Positions 6,683 through 63,529 of a stretch of DNA of 64,000 bases are shown here, one piece after another. The position numbers were made by a program, and so were the translations under genes. Numbering within the stretch: position 1 is the stretch's first letter; each line of letters opens with the position of its first letter. The DNA is from Billgrantia pellis (GTDB taxonomy: Bacteria > Pseudomonadota > Gammaproteobacteria > Pseudomonadales > Halomonadaceae), in contig NZ_VTPY01000008.1 in the NCBI RefSeq assembly GCF_008297955.1, forward strand, positions 124,001 to 188,000. The letters run 5' to 3'. The notes under the pieces were generated by a model. That model saw only the letters and a list, made by a program, of their open reading frames with translations. It was not told the DNA's origin and made no database searches.

Positions 6683-9600
6683 TTACGGATATACCTGTTT
6701 CATCGTCATGGGCTGGGGATTCGGCAGAGCCAATGCCAGATGGTGCCAGGCGCCATCGAGCGGTACACGGACTTTTCCCGCATCGCACGCAATCATCTCT
6801 CCATCCAAGTGGGTTTGCGGGGTGGCAAGGTGACGTTCAGGCGCTTGCATGACATGGATGGTGTAATGGGTGGAAGCCACTTCGATGGTCGCCTCGAAAC
6901 CCGGCCAGGCGGCGGGTAGACAGGGGGCAATGATCAGGAAGGCGCCTTCGCGGCGAATGCCCAGAATACCTTCGAGTCCCGCCCGATACATCCAGCCGGC
7001 CGCTCCCGTGTACCAGGTCCAGCCGCCCCGCCCGGCATGCGGGGCCACGGAGTACACATCGGCAGCAGCGACATAAGGCTCAACCTTGTAGCGCGTAGCT
7101 TCGTTCAGCGTGCGGGCATGATTGATGGGATTGAGCAGCGAGAACAGGTCGACGGCTTTATCGCCCTCTCCCAGTTGGGTAAATGCCAGGATGGCCCACA
7201 TCGCGGCATGACTGTACTGGCCGCCATTTTCGCGAAGCCCGGGAGGGTAACCGCTGATATAACCAGGATCGCGCGCGGGCTGGTCGAAGGGGGGCCAGAA
7301 CAACAGGGCCAGCCCGGGATCCGCGCGAATTAATTCGCGCTCCAGCGAGCGCATGGCAATTGCGGCCCGCTGCGGATCTGCCGCACCGGAGAGTACCGCC
7401 CACGACTGCGCGATTGAGTCGATACGACATTCTGCGCTCTCACGGGTGCCGAGCCAACTGCCGTCATCGTAGGTCGCCCGCCGGTACCACTGGCCATCCC
7501 AGGCATGCTGTTCGAGTGACTCTCGCAGCGAGACTGCGTGGGCTCGCCAGCGGTCGGCACGGGCATCTTCGCCGCCGCGCCGTTCGGCGAACGGTACGAA
7601 CAGATCCAGGGTACGTACCAACAGCCAGCCCAACCACACGCTTTCTCCCTTCCCGGCTTCACCGACCCGGTTCATGCCATCGTTCCAGTCGCCGCCGCCG
7701 ATCAGCGGCAGGCCATGCTCACCCGTCAATGCCAGGCACTGGTCCAAGCCACGCGCGCAGTGGTCAAACAGCGAGCCGATGTCGTCAGCGATCATCGGTT
7801 GGAAAAAGGCATCGTGCTCATCGTCGCCGAGCAAAGCGCCTTCCAGAAAGCTCACCGGCTCATCCAGCACATCGGTGTCTCCCGAGGCGGCAATGTAGAG
7901 CGCACTCGCATAGGCCAGCCAGACCCGGTCGTCGGAAATACGAGTCCGCACACCCTGGCCGGAATGGGGAAGCCACCAGTGTTGCACGTCCCCTTCCACG
8001 AATTGACGAGAGGCGGCACGCAGCAGATGGTGTCGCGTCGTCTCGGGGCTGGCGAAGGTCAGGGCCATGCCATCCTGTAATTGATCGCGGAATCCGTAGG
8101 CGCCACTGGCCTGGTAGAAGGCAGAACGGGCCGTGATCCGGCAGGCCAGGGTCTGGTAGAGCAGCCAGCCGTTGAGCATGATGTCCATGGCGCGATCGGG
8201 GGTAGTGACTTGTACGGCACCTAACTGCTTCTGCCAATAGGACGAGACGGCAGCGAGCTCGGCGTCAAGATCGGCCCCGCGATAATGAGCGATGAGATCT
8301 CTGGCTTCGTCGGCGGAGCGGCACTGACCGATGAACGCGACAACTTCTATTGTCTCATCGACCGCCAGCTCAACGGTGCACTGCAAGGCTGAACAGGGGT
8401 CTAGGCCGGCACCGGTGGCCCCCGAAAGCGGGGTACGGCCGGCCAGGCAAGCGGGAGCTGCATGGCTACCGCCGAGGCCGAGAAATTCAGTACGATCTGC
8501 CGTCCAGGTCGTTTGCAGGCCACCCAGGTCGGCGAAGGCAACGCGTCCGGGAAAAGCCATGTTCCAAGGGTTTCGTACCAGCATTGCGCCAGAACCCTCA
8601 TCCCGATGCGTTATCAGGAACGGACCTGACGAACTTCGAGACAAGCCAAGCGACCATTCCACGTAGCCGGTGACGGAAAGCCGACGAGGTCGCCCCGAGC
8701 GGTTCTTGAGAAGCAATCGAGAGATCCGGATGGGATCGTCGAGTGGCACGAAGTGCAGCAGCTCGAGAGCGATGCCGTGAACCTCGTGCTCGAAGCGGCT
8801 ATAGCCGAAGCCGTGCCGGGCGATATATCGCCCCTCGTTACGAATCGGAAGTGCCGTAGCCGTCCAAACCGTCGAGGTCTCTTCGTCGCGCACATAGATC
8901 GCGTCGCTGCTGGGATCCATCACGGGATCGTTCGACCAGGGCGTAAGCGGATTCTCGCGGCTGTTATCGGCCCATAGATAGCCCGAGCCTTCCGCTGATA
9001 CCTGGAAACCGAACCCGGCGTTGGCCACCACGTTGATCCAAGGGGCCGGCGTGGAACATCCGGCCTCGAGTATCGTCACATACTCCCTCCCCTGCTTGTC
9101 GAAGCCTCCCAAGCCATTGAAGAATTCGAGAGCCGGCGGCGCCTCAGCATCCATCGACTCATACCCCTCCCCGAGCTGACTTGCCTCCTTTGGGGCCGGC
9201 TCAGGTGGCGAGTGGTGAAGCGCGGGCGGTATCAGCAAGAGCTGATCGGCAATCGGCCCACGGTGTGCCACCAGTGCCACACGGGCGACCGACTGCAGCA
9301 GAATACGTGCGTCGAGGCTCATCAAGTCGGCACGCAAGGTGATGACCGAGCCTTGGGCATGGCCCTCGTGCATACGCGGCCGCGACTGGCTACTATGCAC
9401 CGCGGTCTCGATGGCCTGTTGGAGATCCTGCACATAGGAAGAGGCACGCTCGTTGACGATCACCAGGTCGACGCCGAGACGCTTCATGCGCCAGTAATCA
9501 TGCGCCCGCAGCAGTTGGCGCACCTGAGCCATGTCCTCGATCGAATCGATGCGCAGCAGGACGATCGGCAGGTCGCCGGAAATGGCGTGCGGCCACAGTA

Positions 9601-12600
9601 CCGATTGCAGGCCCGCACCGCGCGCGATGGCATCACGCGGAGCCCTGAAGCGGGAGTCGGCATACAAGATGGGGGCCGCCAGGCGCTGGAAATCCGCCGC
9701 TTCCTCGGGCGTGATGGCCAAGTGGCGAAGCTGAACTTGCGCTTGGGTCCAGGCCAACGTCTTGGCTCGCTCAAAGGCGCTGCGGTCTTGATGCTTGTCG
9801 ATCAGGTCCAGCAGTGCCTCGCGAGTCTCTGCCACGACGGTCCAGAAAGCGACACGGGTGACTTTGCCCGGGGCGACCCTGAGGCGATAGCGTAATGCAA
9901 AGACCGGATCGAGCACCGTGCCGGTGGTATTCGTCAGCGGCTGTTCTCCGGTCAGGGCGGCAGCTGTCGTCAACGTGCGCCCCCGACCGATGAAACGGGC
10001 ACGATCGGTCTCGTATTGCATTTCGCCCATGCCTTCGCCTTCCACCACAGCGAAGTGGGCGGCCCAGATCTGAGCTTCGTCCGGCCCACGCCGCCGCCGG
10101 GTGGCGATTAGCGCATCGAATTCCTCAAGATACTCGGTGACGACGAACAGCTTCGCGAAGGCGGGGTGAGCATTGTCAGTAGCCGGCGAGGTCAGCACCA
10201 GTTCCGAATAGGAGGTCACGTCGATACTCCGCTCCCGCCGTCCGCTGCTGGTCAGCGACATGCGCCGCACCTCGCTGTCGTCCTCGCCCGAGACAAGCAC
10301 ATCGAGGTAGGTGACCAGGTCGCCACGGCGATGCGTGAAGCGAGCATAATCTTCGGCAAAGAGCACCTCGTGGCGGCTCTCCTCGGCATCCATTGCTTCA
10401 CCGGGCATAGGGCCGCTGGCCGACCAGCCATCGGAATTGTGGCTGTCGCGCAAAAAAATGAAGCTGCCCCAGTGATCGCGAGTGGCATCCTCTTGCCAGC
10501 GGCTGATGGCCATATGTCCCCAGCGGCTGTACCCCGCTCCCCTCGCCGTCAGCATGACCGAGTAACGTCCGTTCGACAGCAGATGGGTCACCGGTGCCCC
10601 TTCGGCCGTTGCCGTGGTACGACGAACCGACTGGCTCTGATTGAACGCCTCGTTCGGTGCCGACTTCACTTCTTCGGCGCGGGGGTGGGCGATGGCCACG
10701 TCACGCGGGATGCGTTCCTGCAGCAGGAGTTCGCTGGCATGAATGATCGGCTCACGATGGAAGCGTTCACGCATCTGACCGTCATGCAACGTATTGGCGA
10801 TCGCCACGAGGGTCATGCCCTGATGGTGGGCCATGAAACTACGCACGATAGCGACGCTCTCCCCCGCAGGAACTCGCGACCGGGTGAAATCAAGCGCTTC
10901 GTAGAAACCATAGCGTCCCAGCGCCCCCAGGTCGGCAAGCCGTGCGAAGTTACGACGCGCACTTAGTGGATCGACCATGGTCGCCAGACCGGTTGCATAG
11001 GGAGCCACCACGAGGTCGGCAGAGAGACCTCGCTTCAATCCCAGGCCTGGCACGCCGAAGTTGGAATACTGATACGTAAATTCCCTATCGCGAGCATTGT
11101 AGGCGGATTCGGAGAGCCCCCAGGGGACCCCCAGCGAAGCGGCGTATCCCACTTGACGCTTGACTACATGGCGATTGCTTTGCTCGAGCAGGCTGCCCGC
11201 GGGGGCGCGCATCACCAGCGACGGCATCAAATATTCGAACATCGAACCCGACCAGGAAATCAGCGCCGAGCCACGCTCCAACGGCGTAGCCGTACGTCCG
11301 AGGCGAAACCAGTGACGCGTCGGCACATCGCCCTTGGCAATCGCCAATAAACTGGCCAGTCGCGCTTCAGAGGCGAGCAGGTCGTAGCAACTGCTATCCA
11401 GGGTGTTGTCTTCCAAGGAGTAACCGATCGACAGTAGCTGGCGTTCGGGAACGAAAAGGAAGGCGAAATCCATCTCCAGCGCCATTCGGCGCGCGGTGTC
11501 GCTAATCTGTCCGAATCGGGCCAGGAGACGGTTGCGTGAGTCGACTCTGGCGTTCTGCTTTCGGTCTTGGCAATGCTCGGCTACCGACTGGCGCAAGGCC
11601 CCCACCCAGAACAGCACCTCTTCGGCCCAAGGGTTTTCGATGTCCCGCAGGGCATCATGAGCCCTACTCGTGGTTTGATCACTAAGCCGTTTGAGCGCCG
11701 GCAACCACGTCTCTCGCGTCGGCTCGACCTGCAGATGCGCCTCTATCCCATCCAGGCCGGCCTTGAGCGATGCGACTTGCGCGCCATGAGCCGTGGGTGT
11801 CGCCTGGAAGGCTTCGCGCAACAGATGGAGATGATCCGCAATACCCGGACGAGGATCGCGCAACGGCTCGGTTTCCAACCAGAGTTCACAGGCGTTGGCG
11901 ACAACCAATAGATGGCCTGCGAGATTGCCACTATCGACCGAGGAGACGTACTTGGGATCCAACGGACAAAGATCCTGGGTGTCGTACCAATTGAAGAAGT
12001 GCCCTCGATAGCGCGGCAGGGTCTGCATGACCCTCAGCGTGGCTTCAAGACGCTCGGCACTATTCAAAGCGCCTAGCCAACCAAAATCGCGAGCGGCCAG
12101 GATCGATAGAAGATAAAGCCCCATATTGGTCGGAGAGGTACGCCGGGCAATAACGGGTTCGGGCGTTTCTTGGAAGTTGTCCGGAGGCAACCAGTTATCT
12201 CGAGCTGTGACGTAAGTCTCGAAGAAGCGCCAGGTACGTCGCGCGATCAGCCGCAGCTCACGCGCCTCGGCTATCGATAGAGAGTGTTGCGGCTCGAGAC
12301 TCCTAGGCTGACTCACCCGAGCGGCGATAGCCGGCGCGGCCAACCAGAGTAACGCGAAGGGCAACACCACCGGCCAGGCCCTAGGTGCGTAGCCCACCAC
12401 ACCCAACGACACCAACAGCGCCAAGGTGGTCCCCGGCGCCATGCTCCGGTAGAAGCCTGTCAGCAACAGCCTCGGGCGCCCCATCGACTGTGCGGCGGTC
12501 GTCCACTCGAGCAAGTGGCGGCGGGTGATCAATACGCGTGTCAGGGTCCTGAGGATGGCGTCCAGCATCCGCCAGGTCTGGTCGGGCAGGAAGGCAACCC

Positions 12601-22755: not shown

Positions 22756-23775
22756 ATGAAAAGAAAATCCGTTACCTCACGCGATGTCGCCAAGCTGGCC
22801 GGCGTCTCGCAATCCGCTGTCAGCCGCACCTTCTCTCCTAACGCCAAGGTCTCGGAGAGGACACGCAAGAAGGTAATGGACGCCTCCCGCGAGCTGGGCT
22901 ATCGACCGAATACGATAGCCCGCTCGCTCATTACCCGCTCGAGCCGCACCATCGCCGTGGTGACGTATAGTCTGCAGAACCCTTTCTACAGCTCCATGCT
23001 GGAGCAGGCCTCACGCTTCTTTCAGCAACAGGGCTACCATCTGCTGCTGTTCTTCGCTCCATCGAGTGGCGACTTCGATGCGGTACTCGACGACATCATC
23101 AGAAGCCAGGTGGAGGGCGTGCTCATGCTAGCCCTCACCATGAACGAACAGCAGGCACACCTGGTGGCCGACTTCGGCATTCCCATGGTCATTATCAATC
23201 GCACCGTCAACGACTCGGGCATCAGTCAGGTCAGCAGCGACAACTTCCAGGGCGGATACTGGGCCGGCAGATACCTGACTTCGCTGGGGCATCGTCGCAT
23301 CGCCTATCTGGCAGGGCTGCCTGACTCCTCGACCGAGAAGCAGCGTCGCTCCGGTTTTCTCGAAGGGCTGGCCTCGATGCAAGCCTCATGTCATGCAGTT
23401 GACGTTGGCAATTACCGCTACGAGGATGCTTGCCAGGCCACACGTCGGTTGTTCGCCGATTCGCATCCTCCCGACGCCCTCTTCGCGGCTAACGACCTCA
23501 TGGCTATCGCTGCCATGGAGATCCTCCGCCACGAATACTGCATGAAGATTCCTGAGGACGTTTCGATCATCGGGTTTGACGACGTCCCCATGGCCTCCTG
23601 GCCGAGCCACTCCCTTACCACTCTGCAACAGCCCGTGGACACCATGGTCATGCGTGCCACCGAGTTGCTGCTGGAACAGATCGCCCAGCCAGGCACGCCG
23701 CCGGAGCACATCACGCTGCCCGTTACGCCAATACTACGTAACAGCACGAGGCGCCAGAGCGATCCCCGGCGATGA
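22756..23775 (+). CDS. LacI-family transcriptional regulator
   Basis: This 339-residue repressor has an N-terminal helix-turn-helix (VTSRDVAKLAGVSQSAVSRTF, about residues 5-25, with hinge helix to residue 60) and a periplasmic-binding-protein-like sensor domain (FYSSMLEQASRFFQQQGYHLL through SIIGFDDVPMASW). The ATG at 22,756 puts the HTH at the usual place; upstream in-frame codons overlap the carbonic anhydrase remnant. It closes the DctPQM-SDR-dehydrogenase-BKACE operon and probably represses it through the central-CG palindrome at 16,778-16,791, with the imported acid or a product as inducer (inference). Confidence 0.88.
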   Translation: MKRKSVTSRDVAKLAGVSQSAVSRTFSPNAKVSERTRKKVMDASRELGYRPNTIARSLITRSSRTIAVVTYSLQNPFYSSMLEQASRFFQQQGYHLLLFFAPSSGDFDAVLDDIIRSQVEGVLMLALTMNEQQAHLVADFGIPMVIINRTVNDSGISQVSSDNFQGGYWAGRYLTSLGHRRIAYLAGLPDSSTEKQRRSGFLEGLASMQASCHAVDVGNYRYEDACQATRRLFADSHPPDALFAANDLMAIAAMEILRHEYCMKIPEDVSIIGFDDVPMASWPSHSLTTLQQPVDTMVMRATELLLEQIAQPGTPPEHITLPVTPILRNSTRRQSDPRR

Positions 23776-53784: not shown

Positions 53785-53830
53785 TGGTGGGCCCAGCTGG
53801 ACTCGAACCAGCGACCAAGGGATTATGAGT
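53785..53830 (-). repeat. 3' fragment of tRNA-Ile2(CAT): attachment site of the mobile element
   Basis: On - this reads from the anticodon loop ACTCATAA through the variable loop and T arm (CTGGTTCGAGTCCAG) to TGGGCCCA plus CCA. The sequence is close to the 3' part of the E. coli ileX-type gene. No D arm or matching 5' acceptor strand lies on the other side, so this is not a complete tRNA. A duplicated tRNA 3' end is what a tyrosine-recombinase element leaves at one junction; the intact gene would then be at the far, unseen end of the element. Confidence 0.75.
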
Positions 53831-55443: not shown

Positions 55444-56067
55444 CTACGACATGCGCAGGTCACCCAGTATCGTATAAATATTATTCCCCCTCTGCTCTTT
55501 TCCTTTAATAATCACCTCTTCAACTCGATGTACGTGTATCAATATGTGATTTATCAAAAGATCGATACCAGGCCGAATACGGTTTTTTTGCAACCCTGTT
55601 CTGTCACGAAGGGTTTCATGGGTTATCTTTACATCCCTGGTTGGATTAGGTCGCGACGCCAAGAGATAAATATAAATTTTCAACGCCGATAACGAAGCAT
55701 CACCTCTATTTGGAAACCTACAAAGGGACTGCCTCAACCGATCATAAGGGACCTTAGCCCACCCCATGTCACTGCTGGAGTAGACAAGCCGGTAAACATT
55801 TTTGTTTTCTCCCCTCGATACAGCGATGATCTTTTCTTCTTCGAGCTTCCGTACCGCTCTGATTACCATGGGCCGCGACAGACCTGTAATGGCCTCTAGG
55901 TCAGTATACGAAACCCTGATCGCTTGATTCGAAAAATCAGACAGAACGATCCCTAGCAAGCATTTAAGAGCAGCGATGCTTCCACCGCTGCTTTTACCCC
56001 CTGTAAAGCGCTTCAACCCTACCTCGTCCCGCACCCACCAGACGGGTAGCTGTCTGAACCCAGTCAT
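55444..56067 (-). CDS. Winged-helix DNA-binding protein of the mobile element
   Basis: This 207-residue protein has a helix-turn-helix/wing at residues 55-95 (VSYTDLEAITGLSRPMVIRAVRKLEEEKIIAVSRGENKNVYRLV) and a second possible one near 135-175 (LSALKIYIYLLASR, KITHETLRDRTGLQKNRIRPGIDLL). Two tandem winged helices recall plasmid replication initiators, but no initiator signature is clear, so a transcriptional role is equally possible. It overlaps the 48-residue membrane protein upstream (ATGA). It is A+T-rich relative to the chromosome and likely element-specific. Confidence 0.65.
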   Translation of the reverse strand: MTGFRQLPVWWVRDEVGLKRFTGGKSSGGSIAALKCLLGIVLSDFSNQAIRVSYTDLEAITGLSRPMVIRAVRKLEEEKIIAVSRGENKNVYRLVYSSSDMGWAKVPYDRLRQSLCRFPNRGDASLSALKIYIYLLASRPNPTRDVKITHETLRDRTGLQKNRIRPGIDLLINHILIHVHRVEEVIIKGKEQRGNNIYTILGDLRMS

Positions 56068-56424: not shown

Positions 56425-57414
56425 CTAGCGCTCGTCCTCCAGTTTGTGTTCACGCTCGCTAGGGCGCTGGGTCTGGTACCGTTTCTGGAGCTGTGCAGCC
56501 ACCTTCTCCTGGAATTCGTGGCGCTCGGTCTTCATCAGCGGCATGGAGTCCACAAAAGCCGCGACGTGCTTGGCCAGCTCCTGGTCTTCGGGGGCGCGGC
56601 TCTGGGCCATGTCCTTGGCCGCCGTCAGCCAGGCCTTGCGGACATAGGTCTGGCGCTCCTTGATACGATCCTCCCAGGGCCGCGGCTTCGGGGCTTTTCC
56701 TGTCCGCTGGTCGCGGAAGTCTTCAAGGACCTCCCGGACCTTCGCCTGGTCCACCTGTGGCGTCTGGCCTTTCTCGCGAATGTGGTGCACCACTTGGCTA
56801 ACGCCCTTCTTGATCACGCCACGGGTGGCACGCGGTGTGGCCTCGGCCTCTACCCCTCGGCGCTCAAGCTCAGTGGCGAATGCCTCTCGCCACTTCTGCG
56901 GGTCGCCCTTCTTCACGTTCAACCGACGGCCGTCATAGCCCAGGCTCTTCACCGTCAGGTGGACATGCGGGCTGTCAGTGTCGGTATGCAGCGCCATGAC
57001 GTACTGATTACTCTGGCCAAACTGTCGTTTGGCGAATGCACGGACGGCATCTTTCACGTCACGCGGCTCAGTGCCGGCCGGCATGGACATGATGATGTTG
57101 GTGGTGTCGCGGGTGTTCTTCCGGCGCTTGCCCTGATCCTGCGACCAGTCCTTGGCCAGGGCCCGTACCTCGTCTTTCCCATGGATCACGTCGCCGCGCT
57201 CGTCTTCAAGCTCCAGCTTGCCGTTGCGGCTGATGTAGTCCAGGTGGGACTGGACATGATCGGCTCCCTTGGCATTACCAGTGATCTTCACCATGACCTC
57301 TGGCACTCGACTTGCTATGCGGCGCGCACGCGCCCGATTAGCGGCCCGGTTGCTCTTATGCTTTACAGGGCCTCCCAACAAGTCGGCAATGGTGTCATCA
57401 GCCAGACTACCCAT
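56425..57414 (-). CDS. MOBP-type relaxase
   Basis: This 329-residue relaxase nicks oriT and pilots the transferred strand. Tyr60 in SHLDYISRNG is the likely catalytic tyrosine. HTDTDSPHVHL (His143, Asp145, His150, His152) is the metal-binding motif III of the VirD2/TraI group. The C-terminus is short and charged, without a helicase or primase domain. The gene overlaps the preceding paralogue by 8 bp, and its oriT partner lies about 1.05 kb upstream. Residues 38-205 match the neighbouring 170-residue protein along its whole length. Confidence 0.85.
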   Translation of the reverse strand: MGSLADDTIADLLGGPVKHKSNRAANRARARRIASRVPEVMVKITGNAKGADHVQSHLDYISRNGKLELEDERGDVIHGKDEVRALAKDWSQDQGKRRKNTRDTTNIIMSMPAGTEPRDVKDAVRAFAKRQFGQSNQYVMALHTDTDSPHVHLTVKSLGYDGRRLNVKKGDPQKWREAFATELERRGVEAEATPRATRGVIKKGVSQVVHHIREKGQTPQVDQAKVREVLEDFRDQRTGKAPKPRPWEDRIKERQTYVRKAWLTAAKDMAQSRAPEDQELAKHVAAFVDSMPLMKTERHEFQEKVAAQLQKRYQTQRPSEREHKLEDER

Positions 57415-57919
57415 TCTTCCTCCTTCGGGTGGCCTTTAATGTGGCTTTCGCTTCCACCCCGTGCCGTTCCAACTCGGCCGCAAAAGCCTCACGCCACTCC
57501 TGCGGATCGCCCTTCTTCACATGCAACCGGCGCCCATCATGGCCAAGATTCCGCACCGTAAGTTGGACATGCGGATTGTCGGTGTCCGTGTGCAGGGCCA
57601 TGGCATACTGATAATTCTGACCAAATTGCCGCTTGGCGAACGCCTGGGATGCCCTTTTTAGCGCCTGCGGGTCGGTTCCGGCCGGCATCGACAGAACGAT
57701 ATTGGTGGTATAACGAGAGTTCTTGCGCTGCAGACCTTGAAACCTCGACCAGTCTCTAGCCAAGTCACGGACCATATCTTCCGTGAAGGAGAACTGGCCG
57801 CTTTCGTCCTCAAGCTCCACGGCTCCGTTCTTACTGATGCGAAGCAAATCGCTCTCTACTTGGTCCGCATCGTATGCATTACTGACGATCCGGACGACGA
57901 CTTCCGGCTTATCCATCAT
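57407..57919 (-). CDS. Catalytically degenerate relaxase paralogue
   Basis: This 170-residue protein aligns without gaps to residues 38-205 of the downstream relaxase (constant offset of 33). The catalytic Tyr position is Arg27 (SDLLRISKNG), and the third motif-III His is Gln119 (HTDTDNPHVQL). His110 and His117 remain. It has no C-terminal part beyond the nuclease domain. The frame is intact and lies between mobC and the active relaxase with overlaps on both sides, which argues for retention. It may bind oriT or the relaxase without nicking, acting as a regulator or decoy (inference). Confidence 0.8.
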   Translation of the reverse strand: MMDKPEVVVRIVSNAYDADQVESDLLRISKNGAVELEDESGQFSFTEDMVRDLARDWSRFQGLQRKNSRYTTNIVLSMPAGTDPQALKRASQAFAKRQFGQNYQYAMALHTDTDNPHVQLTVRNLGHDGRRLHVKKGDPQEWREAFAAELERHGVEAKATLKATRRRKNG

Positions 57920-58433
57920 CCCTCCACCGATTCATGTTCTTGGACAGCAGACTGGCCACCTTGTCCTTGTGCTGCTCAATTCGCTCTGCCAGCGCCTCGA
58001 TGGCCTCCCGCTTGAGCTTGTCGCTCTCACGGAATTCGACATTCAAGACCTTGGTGATCTGGTTAAGGTTTTTCCCTATTGCACGTAATTCCCTGTTTGA
58101 CTCCCGCAAGACAGCCACCTCGTCGTCCGTCAGTACGGGCTCTTGATGCAACTCAGCCAGAACCATCGCAGTGACCCAACTGGTACGGCTGGGATAGCCC
58201 TCCTCTTGAGCACGTTGTGCTAGCCAGCGTTCCTGAGTGGGTGATAGGCGGATGGTGAGCTTTCGGGACCTAGCTTCGTCCTCTTGGTCGTCCGCCATTA
58301 CAGTCGCAGCTCTGCCGGCAACGCGCTGAATCATTCGCCGCAGCATGTCCGACTCGCGCAGGCCATTGGCATTGCAGAACTGCGCCCAGGCGTTCTTCTC
58401 GATTTCTGTTAGGCGTGCTTCAACTCTCGGCAT
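57909..58433 (-). CDS. mobC: MobC-like relaxosome accessory protein
   Basis: This 174-residue protein has an N-terminal ribbon-helix-helix-like part and the MobC core: RKLTIRLSPTQERWLAQRAQEEGYPSRTSWVTAMVLAELHQEP, then LTDDEVAVLRESNRELRAIGKNLNQITKVLNVEF, which is diagnostic of MobC/NikA-type proteins. It binds oriT and recruits the relaxase. The start at 58,433 is preferred; a longer reading from 58,577 runs through the oriT sequence. The 3' end overlaps the degenerate relaxase. Confidence 0.88.
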   Translation of the reverse strand: MPRVEARLTEIEKNAWAQFCNANGLRESDMLRRMIQRVAGRAATVMADDQEDEARSRKLTIRLSPTQERWLAQRAQEEGYPSRTSWVTAMVLAELHQEPVLTDDEVAVLRESNRELRAIGKNLNQITKVLNVEFRESDKLKREAIEALAERIEQHKDKVASLLSKNMNRWRDDG

Positions 58434-58460: not shown

Positions 58461-58515
58461 TGGGCTAGGCAAGTTTGCCGGCATACGCCAGCACTTGCCG
58501 AATCCTGCCCTAGCC
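58461..58515 (+). other. Origin of transfer (oriT), RP4/MOBP-like
   Basis: GGCAAGT (58,468-58,474) and ACTTGCC (58,493-58,499) are inverted repeats around an 18-nt spacer. Two bases later ATCCTGCCC begins, identical to the core of the RP4 nic region (cleavage after ATCCTG). The nic would be between 58,507 and 58,508, 8 nt from the repeat, the same distance as in RP4. It sits directly before mobC and the MOBP relaxase genes. Confidence 0.7.
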
Positions 58516-58628
58516 TCAAACCCATTGAATTTTTTCGTACGTAAGAAAAATGGCTGCTTCTCGGGCGAGGCTATCAAGCACAGGAATACGCGTTAGGCTT
58601 CGCCATTAGTAATACGGACGGACCTGTC

Positions 58629-58850
58629 TCAAACCTCCTCGTCGCCTGGGGCTGAACCAGAAGCTTCGCCATTAGACATAGGGGAAGGACTTTGAACACT
58701 CTCGGTTGATCCGGCTCCCGATGGTGAAGCTTCGGTTTCAGCACGCTCGCGCCGGCGCCTGGCCAGCTCACTCTTCATCCACTGCCCGGCGGCGCGCATC
58801 TCGTTGCGCAAGTCTTCTATCTCCTGAGGTGTCAAACGGCGATAGCTCAT
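58629..58850 (-). CDS. Small hypothetical protein of the transfer region
   Basis: This 73-residue soluble protein has a helical N-terminal half (LTPQEIEDLRNEMRAAGQWMKSELARRRRERAE) and a disordered Ser/Gly/Pro-rich acidic tail. AGGAG is 8 bp before the ATG at 58,850, and the start overlaps the stop of the upstream membrane protein (ATGA). No family is recognised. It lies between the VirB6 unit and oriT and is probably a transfer accessory. Confidence 0.65.
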   Translation of the reverse strand: MSYRRLTPQEIEDLRNEMRAAGQWMKSELARRRRERAETEASPSGAGSTESVQSPSPMSNGEASGSAPGDEEV

Positions 58851-59140
58851 GATTGTTTCTCCTGAGACGCATCTCGCCGAAGCTGCGGGTAGATCGCCGT
58901 GCGCCATCGCCATTGAAAAACGCACACGGCAATTCCCGCCGTGCAGACAAGCAGTGTTTTGATCGCATGGATATCACCCGCCAATGCATTCGAGACCACC
59001 CCAGGGAGTGCAGGTATCAAGGCCACAACCAGCAAGGCACCAATGAGTAACAGCACGCCAGATAGCCCTAGTTCTCCGAGACGTTTGATGCGCATCCAAC
59101 GCGCACGCCAGGTGGCAAACCATTGTGATGGCATGTTCAT
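58847..59140 (-). CDS. Small membrane protein of the transfer region
   Basis: This 97-residue protein has two hydrophobic helices (about residues 25-48 and 60-78) and basic ends. It may start at 59,140 (ATGA overlap with the virB6 stop) or at 59,134, where GGGGG has a 6-bp spacing. No family is recognised. The topology and tight coupling to virB6 suggest it works with the transfer or exclusion machinery. Confidence 0.65.
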   Translation of the reverse strand: MNMPSQWFATWRARWMRIKRLGELGLSGVLLLIGALLVVALIPALPGVVSNALAGDIHAIKTLLVCTAGIAVCVFQWRWRTAIYPQLRRDASQEKQS

Positions 59141-60132
59141 CCCCCGGTTATCACGTTGCCGGCACCAAAGCGCTTCTGATACGCACGATAAGCCGATTTG
59201 GCGCCACGATACGGTGCTGCTGCAGCATTACCTGCGATACGCGTATCACGCTGGATACCACGGTACTGACGCCTGATCGCTGAGGGACGCATCGCGCTCA
59301 TGGCCGAGCCAAGGGCCCCTTGAGTTGCCAATGCCACACCACCGCCCAATGCAGAAGCAATGGCCGGCACCTGCTTCAGCACCAGGATGCCCAGGGCAAA
59401 AAAAGCAATCAGATAGGCACTTGTGGTCATACTGGCCATGCTGCTTGCCGAGGACTCCACGATGTTCATGAACGCTTCGCTGACATCGATGACCATGCGT
59501 CCAATGGCTGAACCCAAAACTAGCAGCATGCCGAAATTGATCACCATGCCCAGCCAGCTCTCGAAAAAGCGTTGGGTGCTGTTAAAAAGCAGGCCGATGA
59601 TGAAGAGTGGGCCGATCGCCAGCAGCACCGTCGTCGCCACCTTGCTGGCCAGCAGGAGAAACGCCACTACGATGGCAACACCACCACCAAACACCATGAT
59701 CAGAATCGCCACCAGATACATGCCGAAATCACCACTCATGACCCCCGCTTTATCCCAGGCCTGATCAGCTACGGCGAGAACGCGGGAGAACAGGCTATCC
59801 AAAATGGCCGCTGCACCTCCATTGGAACCCGTGATGACTGCTGCTACCTTTTCCGGGCCGTGAGCCAGCACGTCCACCACGACGCCCATATAGGTACCGA
59901 CCGTCAGCCCCAGCGTCATGATGAAGCCGATGCGAAGGATGCGAAAAACACCCTCCTGCAAGGGCTCACTGACCTTGCCAAACATCATCAAATAGCCCCA
60001 GATAGCAATCCAGACGATCAACATGCTGGTAAACATTGGAGTGATGTAAGCGATGAGGTCGGTAGCCGTGTTGATGATGTACTGGTCCAGTGCCTGATCA
60101 ACGACGGAGAACATGCCTTCAAACAGGTTCAT
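59137..60132 (-). CDS. virB6: VirB6/TrbL-type T4SS inner-membrane protein
   Basis: This 331-residue protein has a short periplasmic N-terminus, about six to seven hydrophobic segments, and the VirB6 central region (DLIAYITPMFTSMLIVWIAIWGYLMMFG near the start; GPLFIIGLLFNSTQRFFESWLGMVINFGML near residues 177-206). The C-terminus is basic and cytoplasmic. VirB6 forms part of the inner-membrane channel of conjugative type IV secretion. It starts inside the end of the EexN gene (4-bp overlap). No VirB1-4 or VirB8-11 gene follows, which is unusual. Confidence 0.87.
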   Translation of the reverse strand: MNLFEGMFSVVDQALDQYIINTATDLIAYITPMFTSMLIVWIAIWGYLMMFGKVSEPLQEGVFRILRIGFIMTLGLTVGTYMGVVVDVLAHGPEKVAAVITGSNGGAAAILDSLFSRVLAVADQAWDKAGVMSGDFGMYLVAILIMVFGGGVAIVVAFLLLASKVATTVLLAIGPLFIIGLLFNSTQRFFESWLGMVINFGMLLVLGSAIGRMVIDVSEAFMNIVESSASSMASMTTSAYLIAFFALGILVLKQVPAIASALGGGVALATQGALGSAMSAMRPSAIRRQYRGIQRDTRIAGNAAAAPYRGAKSAYRAYQKRFGAGNVITGG

Positions 60133-60422
60133 GAGTTCTCCTCGCTCTTGAGGCTAGACAAGTCGAGCTCGAAGGGCTCACCGCTAGACAGTGCCCGTTC
60201 CGCCTGGAGTGCATTAATGCAATTCGGCGTATCCTGGAGTGCGCCAGGGTTGTTGCCGCACGTCTCCAGTGTCACCTTGCGCTCGTCGTCATGCGCTTTG
60301 TACCAGTCCACGGTCTGCACCGGGCCAGTATCCGGGGTGTCATCAAAGCACCCGGTCTGCGCAACGCTGACTAGCACCACAACGGCAATATTTCGTGAGC
60401 ACGAAATTTTCCTGGTACTCAT
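60129..60422 (-). CDS. eexN: EexN-family entry-exclusion lipoprotein
   Basis: This 97-residue lipoprotein has a signal with a lipobox-like ...AQTGC (Cys25). The mature part carries the EexN pattern: a WYKAHDDERKVTLETCGNN stretch followed by two spaced Cys (ETCGNNPGALQDTPNCINA). EexN proteins block redundant conjugative entry into cells already carrying the element. Codons 6-11 (ISCSRN) overlie a palindromic DNA site at 60,390-60,407. The C-terminus ends with SSGEPFELDL, a peptide also present at the end of the neighbouring VirB5. Confidence 0.85.
   Translation of the reverse strand: MSTRKISCSRNIAVVVLVSVAQTGCFDDTPDTGPVQTVDWYKAHDDERKVTLETCGNNPGALQDTPNCINALQAERALSSGEPFELDLSSLKSEENS
60390..60407. 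repeat. Palindrome copy 1 (inside eexN start)
   Basis: ATTTCGTGAGCACGAAAT is palindromic except for its central base pair. It lies 15 bp inside the eexN coding sequence and is one of three related sites. Confidence 0.75.
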
Positions 60423-60431
60423 AAAGCTTCC

Positions 60432-61082
60432 TTACCAATCAAGCTCGAAAGGTTCCCCTGATGACGCGACACGCATCTGTTGAACCCGCTGAGCGTGAAG
60501 CGCCTGGTTGGCCACGGCCTGAGAGCGGAGCATGGTCAGCTTGGCCATTTCGTTCTCCAGCATGACTTCCTCGGCGCCGATGCGCGCCTGTAGGTCCAGA
60601 ATGTCTTTCTGGTCCGGACTGTTGTTGACCTGGGCTATCAGGCCGGTCAGGTCTTGGAACCGCTCCTGGGCCTGCTCCAGGGACTTTTCCGACTGAGCTA
60701 ACCAAGTCGCAGCGTTCACATTGCTGCTGTCGTACAGGTCGGCCACGTCCCCGCTCAGGCCATAGTCGCTACCACTGTGGATACCGTAGCGATCCAGTAC
60801 CTCCTGTGGATCCACGTCCAAGGCTGTGTCGTAAGCTGAGTCGATGACGTTGGCTAACCCCCGTGAGCCACTAATGCTGGCCAGCTCTTTGTTAGCCGTT
60901 TCGAGCTGGCTTTTCAGTTGCTCGATTTGGCTAAGCATGTGCTGAACCTGCAAAAGTTGCTGGGTCAGGTTGGACACGTCGATGACCGGAATCCCGCCCG
61001 CCATTGCAGGCTGGGACAAACCGATGGTGGCCGCGATAGCGACGCTGGCCATTTTTCGTGCGCACGAAATTCTGATGCTCAT
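60432..61082 (-). CDS. virB5: VirB5-family minor pilin / T4SS protein
   Basis: This 216-residue periplasmic protein has a signal peptide (about residues 1-29, ending PAMAG) and long helices typical of VirB5 (LTQQLLQVQHMLSQIEQLKSQLETANKELASISGSRG; EKSLEQAQERFQDLTGLIAQV; ARIGAEEVMLENEMAKLTMLRSQAVANQAL). VirB5 caps the conjugative pilus and helps recipient contact. Codons 4-9 (ISCARK) overlie the palindrome at 61,054-61,069. The C-terminus is SSGEPFELDW. It is followed 10 bp later by eexN, then virB6. Confidence 0.87.
   Translation of the reverse strand: MSIRISCARKMASVAIAATIGLSQPAMAGGIPVIDVSNLTQQLLQVQHMLSQIEQLKSQLETANKELASISGSRGLANVIDSAYDTALDVDPQEVLDRYGIHSGSDYGLSGDVADLYDSSNVNAATWLAQSEKSLEQAQERFQDLTGLIAQVNNSPDQKDILDLQARIGAEEVMLENEMAKLTMLRSQAVANQALHAQRVQQMRVASSGEPFELDW
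61054..61070. repeat. Palindrome copy 2 (inside virB5 start)
   Basis: TTTCGTGCGCACGAAA is a perfect 16-bp palindrome 13 bp inside the virB5 coding sequence, matching copies 1 and 3. Confidence 0.8.
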
Positions 61083-61084
61083 GG

Positions 61085-61408
61085 TTAGGCTTCCTTTTGG
61101 CTATTCTGGTGGACCGCCTTGGCCTCCAGACGGCGTTTCGTCCTCTTGAGCGTGAGCGATCGTTTTTCAAAATCCAGGCTTTTCAGGTCGATGGACTCCA
61201 TCACCTCTTTCATCTCCTCGATGCAGCTGAAGAAGTCCTCAGGAAGGGCTTCCAACCCTTCAGTCAGAAAGTCCCGAGCGTAACCAGCGATGATCATCAG
61301 AGTTTGAATCTCACTCCCGATGGCGTGCCGTTCAATCGCTTGGGATCGGCACAGCCGAGCTAGCTCGCTGTCCGTAAAAATAGGTGTGTTATATTGATCG
61401 TTAGCCAT
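61085..61408 (-). CDS. Hypothetical protein of the transfer operon
   Basis: This 107-residue soluble, highly charged helical protein starts behind AGGAGG with 5-bp spacing and ends 2 bp before virB5. C-terminal LKSLDFEKRSLTLKRTKRRLEAKA is basic and probably helical. No family is recognised. It is probably regulatory or structural for the transfer operon. A non-coding alternative is unlikely given the strong ribosome site. Confidence 0.65.
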   Translation of the reverse strand: MANDQYNTPIFTDSELARLCRSQAIERHAIGSEIQTLMIIAGYARDFLTEGLEALPEDFFSCIEEMKEVMESIDLKSLDFEKRSLTLKRTKRRLEAKAVHQNSQKEA

Positions 61409-61435
61409 AATTGCCTCCTATACAGGCAGTTGTGG

Positions 61436-61615
61436 TTAGGCGCGGCCGGGGCCGTCATCCCCGTACCGCGCCGTTTGAATCGCCTTTAGCAGCTCACTCA
61501 GCGCCTGGTGTTCCTCGTCAGTTAGCCAGAATGCGCGTTGCCGGCGCCCCAACTTATTTTGTCTTCCGACATAATCACGTTGTCGCTGGGCGCCCGTCTT
61601 TGGGTCGCTTTTCAT
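61436..61615 (-). CDS. Small ribbon-helix-helix-like protein, first gene of the transfer operon
   Basis: This 59-residue protein (MKSDPKTGAQRQRDYVGRQNK...) is basic at the N-terminus. RAFWLTDEEHQALSELLKAIQ near residues 27-47 has the strand-helix pattern of small RHH repressors found on plasmids. An in-frame GTG at 61,672 is less likely because it lies inside the promoter. It is a candidate for the protein that binds one of the palindromes upstream. Confidence 0.6.
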   Translation of the reverse strand: MKSDPKTGAQRQRDYVGRQNKLGRRQRAFWLTDEEHQALSELLKAIQTARYGDDGPGRA

Positions 61616-61655
61616 TCCGATTTTAAGCTCAAAAAAACGCCAACTTTGAAAGAAA

Positions 61656-61683
61656 AGTATAGAGAATGTCACTAATGACGCAA
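61656..61683 (-). promoter_or_regulatory. Sigma70-like promoter of the transfer operon
   Basis: On -, TTGCGT (61,678-61,683) and TATACT (61,656-61,661) are separated by 16 bp, about 40 bp before the RHH-like gene. They sit downstream of both palindromes of the control region. Confidence 0.5.
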
Positions 61684-61763: not shown

Positions 61764-61781
61764 ATTTCGTGCGCACGAAAT
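61764..61781. repeat. Palindrome copy 3 (control region)
   Basis: ATTTCGTGCGCACGAAAT is a perfect 18-bp palindrome in the intergenic region, about 80 bp upstream of the promoter of the RHH/virB5/eexN/virB6 operon. Confidence 0.8.
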
Positions 61782-62001: not shown

Positions 62002-62757
62002 TTAACTCGGCAGTATCATTGCTCGCATTTTGCTCAGCGCGGCATCGCCAACCTTACCGCTACCCAAGCTCCTGGCCAACGCCATTGCTTGTTCCTGCCC
62101 CCGCTTCTCAGCCCTCTGAACCAGAGTGAGAGGTTTGTCAGTGCCTAGCAGCTCTCGCTCGGTCAATCGTTGTCCATTCATCACACGGTTGACCAAGGCG
62201 AGATATTCTTGGCTAAAACGCTCTCGAATACTGCCCATTTCCCGTTGCCCGGAGTGCATAATGCTCCAGGTTACCTTTCGGGCTGCGAGACGCACAGCAA
62301 GGTGACTCCAAGAGTGATTAGCGGGGGAGTGAGCTTTTTCACATACTTCAGCCCAGGCCAGCTCCACATTAGGCATACCGAGGTCCTCTGGGCGTGGTTC
62401 ACAAAGAACAGCGAATTCGGCAGGCTGTGGTGGCCAAGCTTCACCCCCTTGCCGCACAGACGCTCGGAGCCTTTCCCGGCAGCAACGATAGCCGAGTTTA
62501 AGATGTGCGACGCTTAAATGGGCTAATTCAGCAAGCCACAGGCCCTTTTCATCGTAAAGCCCCCACTGGCTGATAAACTTATTTCCATAGAGGTTCTTAA
62601 GGGCATCAAACAGTGCATCGACATCGTGTTCAGTCACTGCCTGGGCATTTGAGGCTTCTCCAGAGTTAACCTTCAAGCTATCGAACTCTTCGGGCCCGGT
62701 CTCGAGCTTCTGCAGCTGAGATACGACGTGATGGAGAGTGTCCATAGCAGCTTTCAT
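62002..62757 (-). CDS. Phage lambda P-like replication protein (helicase loader)
   Basis: This protein of about 251 residues resembles replication protein P: a FDALKNLYGNKFISQWG segment near residue 50, WLAELAHLSVAHLKLGYRCCRERLRASVRQGGEAWPPQPAEFAVLC in the middle, and a basic C-terminus. P proteins deliver the host DnaB helicase to an origin marked by an O-type initiator. GAGGGG lies 7 bp before the ATG at 62,757; an ATG at 62,763 is too close to it. The N-terminus overlaps the end of the O-like gene by 80 bp. Confidence 0.75.
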   Translation of the reverse strand: MKAAMDTLHHVVSQLQKLETGPEEFDSLKVNSGEASNAQAVTEHDVDALFDALKNLYGNKFISQWGLYDEKGLWLAELAHLSVAHLKLGYRCCRERLRASVRQGGEAWPPQPAEFAVLCEPRPEDLGMPNVELAWAEVCEKAHSPANHSWSHLAVRLAARKVTWSIMHSGQREMGSIRERFSQEYLALVNRVMNGQRLTERELLGTDKPLTLVQRAEKRGQEQAMALARSLGSGKVGDAALSKMRAMILPS

Positions 62758-63529
62758 TGTCATACCCCTCTCGTGAATTCATGAGATTATTTTCAGTTCC
62801 TTTCTGGCTCATTCGATTCTCATAAACCCAACGAGCCAGTCGGTCATGCCAGCCTTGCTCAGTGAAAGCCCGATTTGTCTCCGAGTAATAGCCAACAAAA
62901 TCCGCAAGCTCAGCCTGGCTAGGACGAGCACCATCCGGCATGTCTCGACGCTGACAAGCCAATCCGAAGACATTGAGATCAGGCTGCCACCCATAGGTCA
63001 TCAAGAACTGCTTGCAGCGTCTCTCGCTCAGCTCGTCTACACGTGTGTGTGAGTTAGAGTTGGTTAAGGACGGTTCGGGTGCAGATTCTGCACCCCGTGC
63101 TGCAGTAATCCGCACCCCGTTATTGTGACGAGGTGCGGTATCTGCACCCCGTGCAATGTTGCGGGGTGCAGATATTGCATCCCGTTGATCGTAACTGCTG
63201 ACCTCATCTTCATCACCGACTCCGCTGCCATCCCTTCCAAGTTCCATTCGCAGGTCATATACCACTGGCCGCCGATCAGCACGTTCAATAATGGCCTCTG
63301 CGACACGCTGATTTCCTCTCTGAATCGCACCGACTTCTCGCAAGAGCTTGAGCTTCTCCTGAACCGTTCGACGCTTAAGCCCTGTATATCTGGACAATAA
63401 TTCGACGCTTGGGAAAGCATAACGGCCTTCCTCGTCGGCGTGATTAGCCAAGCCAATAAGCACATGACGAGCACCAGGATCTGTTACAACCTGTTGATGC
63501 AAGGCCCAGGCAATTGCTTGTACGCTCAT
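62678..63529 (-). CDS. Phage O-like replication initiator with helix-turn-helix
   Basis: This 283-residue protein has an N-terminal winged HTH (VLIGLANHADEEGRYAFPSVELLSRYTGLKRRTVQEKLKLLREVGAIQRG, about residues 24-73), as in O-type and DnaT-like initiators. Next come a low-complexity linker (about 110-155) and a C-terminal domain that should contact the P-like loader (QAELADFVGYYSETNRAFTEQGWHDRLARWVYENRM). The linker is encoded by palindromic repeats (63,076-63,184), as the lambda origin lies inside gene O. The start overlaps the stop of the upstream AlpA-like gene by ATGA. Confidence 0.75.
   Translation of the reverse strand: MSVQAIAWALHQQVVTDPGARHVLIGLANHADEEGRYAFPSVELLSRYTGLKRRTVQEKLKLLREVGAIQRGNQRVAEAIIERADRRPVVYDLRMELGRDGSGVGDEDEVSSYDQRDAISAPRNIARGADTAPRHNNGVRITAARGAESAPEPSLTNSNSHTRVDELSERRCKQFLMTYGWQPDLNVFGLACQRRDMPDGARPSQAELADFVGYYSETNRAFTEQGWHDRLARWVYENRMSQKGTENNLMNSREGYDNESCYGHSPSRRISAAEARDRARRVR
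63076..63184. repeat. Four palindromic iterons: probable replication origin inside the O-like gene
   Basis: Units of 22-24 bp at 63,076-63,097, 63,096-63,119, 63,129-63,151 and 63,162-63,184 share the arms CGGGGTGCAGA and TCTGCACCCCG around a 1-3 bp centre; the second has a decayed left arm. Centres are about 21, 33 and 33 bp apart. Like the lambda iterons they are palindromic and lie within the initiator gene. Confidence 0.65.

Follow-up and report, generated by a model that had tools for sequence, protein, structure and literature searches.

An integrative mobilizable element of Billgrantia pellis carries virB5, eexN and virB6 without the rest of a type IV secretion system and is probably a conjugation satellite of RA3/pEIB202-group plasmids

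The window analysed here is a stretch of 64,000 nucleotides from Billgrantia pellis (contig NZ_VTPY01000008.1, positions 124,001 to 188,000; G000:C8:124001-188000), and it contains part of a 16.3-kb element in which virB5, eexN and virB6 stand without the rest of a type IV secretion system (T4SS), a state that we call orphan. We conclude that this is probably an integrative mobilizable element, a helper-dependent conjugation satellite of KorB-carrying plasmids of the RA3 (IncU)/pEIB202 group, with an exclusion identity of its own. Sequence comparisons suggest that the element imitates this plasmid group three times, in the core of its origin of transfer (oriT), in its KorB operators, and in the VirB5-EexN-VirB6 set itself. 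The cassette consists of the following features:

60432..61082, minus strand: VirB5 (Pfam T4SS, 1.9e-29)
60129..60422, minus strand: EexN-family exclusion lipoprotein (NCBIfam NF033894, 65.4 bits against a cut-off of 33)
59137..60132, minus strand: VirB6/TrbL-family inner-membrane channel protein (Pfam TrbL/VirB6, 9.7e-45)
58847..59140, minus strand: 97-aa hydrophobic protein (open frame; hydrophobicity judged by eye)
58629..58925, minus strand: 98-aa protein, function unknown, with matches in the majority of orphan cassettes (open frame, tblastn)
61085..61408, minus strand: 107-aa helical protein, seen solely with orphan cassettes in the searches made
61436..61672, minus strand: 78-aa open reading frame with which the cassette operon probably begins
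61401..61473, minus strand: R1162-like structured RNA (RF00043) lying across the 107-aa gene's start (RNA family scan)

All three secretion genes are open frames with a family match, so that VirB5, exclusion and VirB6 equivalents are present together, and they are the only secretion genes recognised in the element, as a preliminary description of this DNA had stated. It had also described a direct passage from the operon to mobilization genes, and oriT, mobC and a MobP1-type relaxase gene indeed follow, with the frame at 58847-59140 as a fourth small gene of the cassette. As the contig runs on past the right edge of the window, the continuation (L002) was included: it holds a methyltransferase, an unknown protein, a HerA-like ATPase, a tyrosine integrase and then a tRNA-Met, and no secretion gene was recognised there. 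A complete T4SS was thus not found in the remaining part of the element, where, according to the preliminary description, the three genes might still have turned out to be its ordinary members. Two identical 46-bp tRNA-Met repeats bound the element, which measures 16,303 bp from repeat to repeat, the left one being:

53785..53830, unstranded: left attachment repeat of 46 bp, with the same sequence as the 3' half of the tRNA-Met at L002 6088-6133 (repeat search, tRNA scan)

The element therefore has both an integrase of its own and the attachment repeats of site-specific integration. At the level of the whole host genome (4.35 Mb, rated 99.99% complete), the profiles PF03135 (VirB4) and PF03743 (VirB10) gave zero matches, in agreement with the gene-by-gene reading that the element has no complete T4SS. 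KorB was likewise not found in this genome; the closest candidate, a 313-aa frame with 29% identity, is probably a chromosomal ParB.

The cassette recurs in related elements. One genome per species was scanned for a pattern derived from a VirB6 alignment of the window and five relatives. The scan, which is not exhaustive and relies on two short conserved peptides, yielded 27 loci, and these were classified by tblastn with 27 proteins. Orphan cassettes make up 21 of the loci: all have the 107-aa gene, EexN and VirB6, 20 have VirB5 and 20 the 97-aa protein, and tblastn gave zero matches to VirB3, VirB4, VirB8-11, VirD4 or KorB. The remaining six (L038-L043) have a T4SS, in L040 only up to VirB8, where the contig ends, and possess neither the 107-aa gene nor the 97-aa gene, which in the cassettes overlaps virB6. 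The window's integrase is shared at 90-98% identity by 19 orphan loci (with partial matches in L021 and L030), all of them from the Halomonadaceae genera Halomonas, Vreelandella, Salinicola, Modicisalibacter and Billgrantia; L031 and L032 are metagenome-assembled contigs without integrase. A tRNA-Met adjoins the integrase in 18 orphan loci, and attachment repeats were recovered in 4 of 18 loci tried, delimiting elements of 11.0, 13.7, 16.1 and 17.2 kb; other elements may end beyond the examined stretch, and the short right flanks of L020, L027 and L028 are due to contig ends. Among 275 genomes of the family, 25 have a VirB6 match, of which 24 belong here (58-100% identity) and one (G120, 23%) represents another system. 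A pEIB202-type VirB4 (E <= 1e-30) was found in these 275 genomes only in G120, at 28% and thus outside the 24, and PF03135 matched eight genomes, three of them among the 24. A search of a plasmid collection for the 107-aa protein (E <= 0.01) yielded three records, namely pCY-VIM, pHD2956-VIM and p123, and in all of them an orphan cassette is present without virB neighbours. The structured RNA RF00043 scored above threshold in the window and in seven of eight loci scanned (L004, L023, L025, L031, L032, L033 and L037, not in L019), and its placement suggests an RNA control of the cassette. The predicted fold of the 107-aa protein consists of three helices (pTM 0.31).

Links to the RA3/pEIB202 group lie in the mobilization region and in the operators:

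58499..58514, minus strand: oriT core GCTAGGGCAGGATTCG of RA3/pEIB202 type (exact match)
56425..57414, minus strand: MobP1-type relaxase, 73% identical to that of pEIB202 (domain match, score under the NCBIfam cut-off)
57407..57919, minus strand: second relaxase-domain protein, without catalytic Tyr and without the last His of the motif (domain match, alignment)
57909..58433, minus strand: MobC/NikA-like relaxosome protein (domain match; start 58433 read from the sequence)
58533..58548, unstranded: imperfect KorB operator adjoining oriT (TTTCTTACGTACGAAA on the minus strand; sequence match)
60391..60406, unstranded: KorB operator within the start of eexN (sequence match)
61054..61069, unstranded: KorB operator within the start of virB5, absent there in seven conjugative-type relatives (sequence match)
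61765..61780, unstranded: KorB operator upstream of the cassette operon (sequence match)

The oriT core adjoins a KorB-type site in the window, in pCY-VIM and in all seven conjugative-type relatives with a virB operon (RA3, pEIB202, pVIM-20710, pVH1, an S. entomophila plasmid, and two V. alginolyticus plasmids that are typed as non-mobilizable and have some genes split). RA3's copy has one mismatch and lies within its published 45-nt oriT at 9722-9766. By its exact core, next to an imperfect operator, the window's oriT falls into the RA3/pEIB202 group, and with at most one mismatch the core is present in 18 of the 21 orphan loci; it is absent from the examined stretches of p123 and L038-L043. 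A match of 37-53 bp to small IncP-like plasmids (~58590-58650) had also been considered as oriT and was dropped in favour of the core shared with RA3; an Rfam search and DNA folding of that stretch found nothing. Within it, 38 bases (58595-58632) recur with at most seven mismatches in 16 of 21 orphan loci and in pCY-VIM, pVIM-20710, BPP5P1, p2990 and pMAD49b, in several cases close to rep genes. L026 has four oriT cores alternating with five KorB-type sites at a spacing of ~110-120 bp (11561-12064), an array that by its sequence resembles a multiplied oriT/parS region.

Catalytic Tyr and His motif are both present in the window's MobP1-type relaxase, and relaxases of this family were matched by tblastn in six of the 21 orphan loci in addition to the window. 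Ten others have only a MobC-like protein of 32-35% identity (the contig of L044 ends soon after it), and the last five, most of them close to contig ends, also lack a relaxase match; in the comparisons of identity and selection, MobC was one codon too long at its start, with the first residues set to M. The bounded elements L025 and L036 have a MobC-like protein without relaxase match, as judged from tblastn and a Pfam scan of ten frames out of 42 in L025, L036 and L037, and therefore probably borrow the relaxase of a helper. In the second relaxase-domain protein, Tyr is replaced by R or S and the last His by Q in 6 of 6 copies (window, L019, L032, L033, L037 and L045), and it is probably a conserved, inactive relaxase paralogue. 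The matches of oriT and KorB sites would fit a mobilisation of the element by a helper in trans.

According to the available text of the RA3 papers (PMC4175270, PMC7414963), KorB, a protein of the ParB family, binds the IR-SnaBI palindrome next to the oriT of RA3 and has further sites of action at orf02p, mobCp and orf023p. Our scan of RA3 gave three operator matches, all TTTCGTACGTACGAAA, at 2075, 9707 and 23579, and these fit the published KorB sites, the one at 23579, inside eexN, presumably being orf023p. Reading of the operator by KorA/TrfB or MobC was also considered and dropped, as the RA3 papers call the palindrome the O_B of KorB and the MobC site differs. The palindrome TTTCGTGNNCACGAAA has three copies in the window against 0.14 expected (at <=2 mismatches), and the three exact copies in the 4.35-Mb genome are all in the cassette region, with none for the reversed control. 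All seven virB-operon relatives, and likewise L038, have the operator in eexN but not at the virB5 start; all 21 orphan loci have it at the eexN start, and the 20 with virB5 all have it at the virB5 start as well, and the eexN copy is degenerate in pCY-VIM. No KorB site was found in L039-L043 or in four plasmids of other lineages (L007-L010). Neither the exact operator letters nor pCY-VIM were found mentioned in the literature searched. In L037, which lacks virB5, eexN starts at the operator immediately after the 107-aa gene, an arrangement consistent with loss of virB5 by recombination between the two operators.

The cassette appears to be maintained by selection. Between the window and pCY-VIM, the ratio of nonsynonymous to synonymous substitution rates (dN/dS) is 0.12 for the 107-aa gene, 0.075 for virB5 and 0.10 for eexN, and virB6 has a nonsynonymous divergence (pN) of 0.046 with saturated synonymous sites. 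As both copies are orphan and have the flanking small genes in common, selection most likely acts on a cassette without a T4SS in cis. That the genes are the relic of a decayed conjugative element is on this evidence very improbable. It is true that virB5, eexN and virB6 are consecutive in full operons and that virB5 is lost in L037, but the same set recurs with its cassette-specific 107-aa gene in 24 places (21 loci, window, pCY-VIM and p123), the compared frames are open and constrained, virB5 contains an operator that conjugative-type virB5 genes lack, alleles keep being exchanged, and a cognate VirB4 was found neither in this genome, which also lacks a VirB10 match, nor in the 275-genome family sample.

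The proposed exclusion identity of the satellite would lie in the pair of EexN and VirB6. We compared protein distances in 23 cassettes (20 loci, window, pCY-VIM and p123), from which L037 was left out because it lacks virB5; L038-L043 were not included. The distances of EexN and VirB6 are strongly correlated (r=0.88, p=0.0002), those of VirB6 with the 107-aa protein (0.16, p=0.10), with VirB5 (0.49) and with the overlapping 97-aa protein (0.35) much less so, and the 107-aa protein correlates with VirB5 at r=0.63. Two VirB6 groups, A with 13 and B with five members, have a mean distance between groups of 0.33 for both EexN and VirB6, compared to 0.03-0.10 within groups, and show no difference in the 107-aa protein (0.13 between, 0.12-0.14 within) and little in VirB5 (0.18 between, 0.10 and 0.18 within). 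Fixed differences between A and B occupy 93 of 331 VirB6 positions and are concentrated at residues 211-255 (27 of 45), and the EexN tails differ between the groups as well. At the DNA level, identity between pCY-VIM and p123 is 98-100% from a point upstream of the operon to within virB5 and drops thereafter, to 48-87% over eexN-virB6. These patterns suggest that EexN and VirB6 form a paired module, whose alleles change together on a shared backbone.

This coupling also bears on two other explanations of the cassette. It could be an exclusion module only, a defence in which EexN blocks plasmids or rival elements and in which VirB5 and VirB6 are merely carried along or stabilise EexN outside any helper channel. 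Such a role would agree with L037, where eexN-virB6 was kept and virB5 lost, with the restriction-type and OLD-like genes carried by the relative L025, and with the finding, given in the available text on pKPC_UVA01, that the Eex lipoprotein TrbK functions in a recipient when cloned alone (PMC8923210). However, VirB5 and VirB6 would be needless if EexN acted alone, and yet both frames are open and purifying selection on them is strong; the divergence of VirB6 parallels that of EexN, as expected if VirB6 is the partner that EexN recognises in donors; and oriT and KorB operators link the element to transfer. We thus regard a pure defence function as unlikely, and as somewhat less likely still the idea that an own tip and channel let the element use distantly related T4SSs without any role in evading exclusion. 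Compatibility of this kind could explain why VirB5 appears to have been exchanged between orphans and conjugative-type systems, as the VirB5 tree has four label changes between orphan and T4SS loci and groups L032 with L038 at a support of 100/100, but it leaves unexplained the constant retention of eexN (21 of 21 loci) and the discrete, linked EexN-VirB6 alleles on one backbone.

Comparison with complete systems is in line with an exchangeable exclusion pair. The window's VirB5, EexN and VirB6 are 75%, 67% and 67% identical to those of pEIB202, and the corresponding ranges for L019-L030 are 82-92%, 63-68% and 65-67%; VirB5 is nearer to pEIB202 than VirB6 is in all 20 orphan loci with VirB5, the margin being as small as 3 points in L036 and L044. 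Among RA3, pEIB202, pVIM-20710, CP082306 and the S. entomophila plasmid, VirB6 is the most conserved of the three proteins in 10 of 10 pairs. The full T4SS of the Marinobacterium locus L038 (region 9158-10972) has VirB4, VirB8-11 and VirD4 proteins that are 79-90% identical to those of pEIB202, with VirB5 at 76%, and EexN (54%) and VirB6 (62%) are the outliers, which fits the expectation for an exchangeable exclusion pair. We therefore prefer the reading in which EexN and VirB6 are exchanged together in orphans and, as L038 indicates may happen, in complete systems too.

How could the cassette work? We deem a mechanism of substitution and exclusion most likely because of the precedents SGI1, GIsul2/IncP island and pKPC_UVA01. 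When a helper plasmid enters the cell, its KorB would bind the element's operators and tie the expression of the cassette to the presence of the helper; through the KorB sites, the element might after excision also become attached to the partition complex of the helper. VirB6 of the element, with VirB5, would then replace its counterpart in the mating pore, so that cells that already bear the helper would no longer recognise the incoming channel and the element could enter them. EexN of the element, in turn, would turn away donors with a VirB6 of the same type, and EexN-VirB6 would thus be a switchable exclusion identity. The missing T4SS, the purifying selection on the three genes, the oriT and KorB signals, and the paired EexN-VirB6 module all fit the SGI1-like role proposed in the preliminary description. 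Its idea that a helper's inner channel is remodelled and an own exclusion applied is supported by the sequences; remodelling of the pilus tip is less well supported, as orphan VirB5 is often close to that of pEIB202 and is lost in one relative.

Several observations weigh against our interpretation. L037 has lost virB5; as the genes of EexN and VirB6 are adjacent, some co-inheritance is expected in any case; and VirB5 also correlates with EexN (r=0.67). A VirB6 less conserved than VirB5 had to be rejected as a mark of orphans only, as L038 with its full T4SS has it likewise, and a single origin of the orphans is possible and weakly supported in the VirB6 tree (46/39). The published KorB site of RA3 is TTTCGTACGTACGAAA, and KorB is presumed to bind the GTGCGCAC form as well; as KorB is a repressor in RA3, a helper's KorB might switch the cassette down. 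Helper plasmids, which the preliminary description had suggested to look for in related strains, were not encountered: the 275 family genomes contain no candidate helper, and the partnership has therefore not been seen in place. A possible satellite-helper pair is formed by pCY-VIM (L004) and the full plasmid pVIM-20710 (L015), both from Enterobacter, which have common VIM-1, IntI1 and IS6100 protein accessions.

If the satellite interpretation is right, mating-pore hijacking is no longer confined to F-type systems (SGI1) and putative IncP-1 elements but reaches a large environmental family, where it is linked to the mimicry of a partition and regulatory protein. As EexN and VirB6 occur in natural allele pairs, they offer a direct test of what exclusion targets in the donor in P-type systems, and since two of the related plasmid records contain a carbapenemase gene, the mechanism may bear on the spread of such small plasmids. 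One could go further and see in these elements an independently evolved counterpart of SGI1 for mating-pair formation type T (MPF_T), that is, a widespread satellite family that depends on one plasmid class in a threefold manner, via oriT, KorB/parS-type sites and mating pore, and that has exchangeable EexN-VirB6 immunity types. We consider this broader view plausible, albeit a little short of probable; if true, what EexN targets on the donor side in P-type conjugation is VirB6, and an exclusion-typing system is the means by which satellites and helpers compete.

Further genes of the element lie on both sides of the cassette and mobilization genes:

62002..62763, minus strand: lambda P-like helicase loader (domain match)
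62678..63529, minus strand: O-like replication initiation protein (domain match)
55444..56067, minus strand: helix-turn-helix protein of 207 aa, downstream of the relaxase (domain match)

Owing to the lambda O/P-like replication pair, the element may replicate after excision; at the same position, L023, L025, L037 and L045 have a protein of another kind with 228-247 aa. The cargo at L002 271-4736, an adenine methyltransferase, an unknown 441-aa protein and the HerA-like ATPase, is possibly a defence system.

Among known systems, the available text of a review describes GIsul2 and the IncP island as integrative elements with TrbJ-TrbK-TrbL, for which an SGI1-like reshaping of the pore has already been proposed (PMC5704250). 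Like our element, they are integrated, helper-dependent and equipped only with VirB5-Eex-VirB6 equivalents, and the IncP island has a MobP relaxase of its own. They belong to the IncP-1 Trb lineage, whereas the trio of our element belongs to the RA3/pEIB202 lineage and is distinguished by KorB operators in coding starts, a cassette-specific 107-aa gene, allelic EexN-VirB6 pairs and a distribution in Halomonadaceae. SGI1, according to the available text of two papers, swaps in its own TraN, TraH and TraG for those of the helper and defeats the helper's exclusion via TraG (PMC5389848), the adhesin TraN being most alike (78%) and the exclusion determinant TraG least (37%), and it imitates the parS sites of the helper and responds to the helper's regulator (PMC10954446). 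The likeness lies in the replacement mating-pore proteins that are carried on a satellite. SGI1, however, has F-type proteins, an IncC helper and the activator AcaCD, and these texts mention no exclusion gene for it, whereas our element has eexN and KorB-type sites. With MPF_T proteins and a tRNA-Met site in place of F-type TraN/TraH/TraG and integration at thdF/trmE (PMC5704250, PMC5389848), the element may work like SGI1 but is not a member of the SGI1 family. With RA3 (IncU) and pEIB202 it has in common the oriT core, a KorB operator beside oriT and in eexN, the MobC-relaxase pair and the gene order virB5-eexN-virB6, but these plasmids have a full T4SS, KorB-IncC and a plasmid replicon, and the element, having neither the full virB operon with coupling protein nor KorB, is not a conjugative plasmid of this group. 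The same orphan cassette with KorB operators is found in pCY-VIM/pHD2956-VIM and within the sul2 segment of p123 of V. tubiashii, with VirB6 identities to the window of 92% for pCY-VIM, where the oriT core and a MobC match without annotation occur as well, and 72% for p123. These differ in being plasmid-borne with resistance genes and in having no match to the window's relaxase family in the stretches examined, and p123 is a large plasmid, typed MPF_F/MOBH and therefore equipped with its own F-type system. For pKPC_UVA01, the available text states that transfer requires the genes named trbJ and trbL but can do without trbK (PMC8923210). Comparable sets are carried by small plasmids of other lineages without KorB site (L007, L009 and L010), namely VirB5-EexN-VirB6 in BPP5P1, an annotated TrbJ-TrbK in pMAD49b and a TrbJ-TrbK-TrbL-like set in p2990, and the trio may thus have been recruited several times. 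A VirB5-EexN-VirB6 element of the RA3/pEIB202 lineage was not found described in the literature searched, which did not extend to many subscription papers. In conclusion, the architecture is of a kind already known from GIsul2, the IncP island and SGI1, and it is the lineage, the KorB mimicry and the co-swapping EexN-VirB6 pairs that appear to be new.

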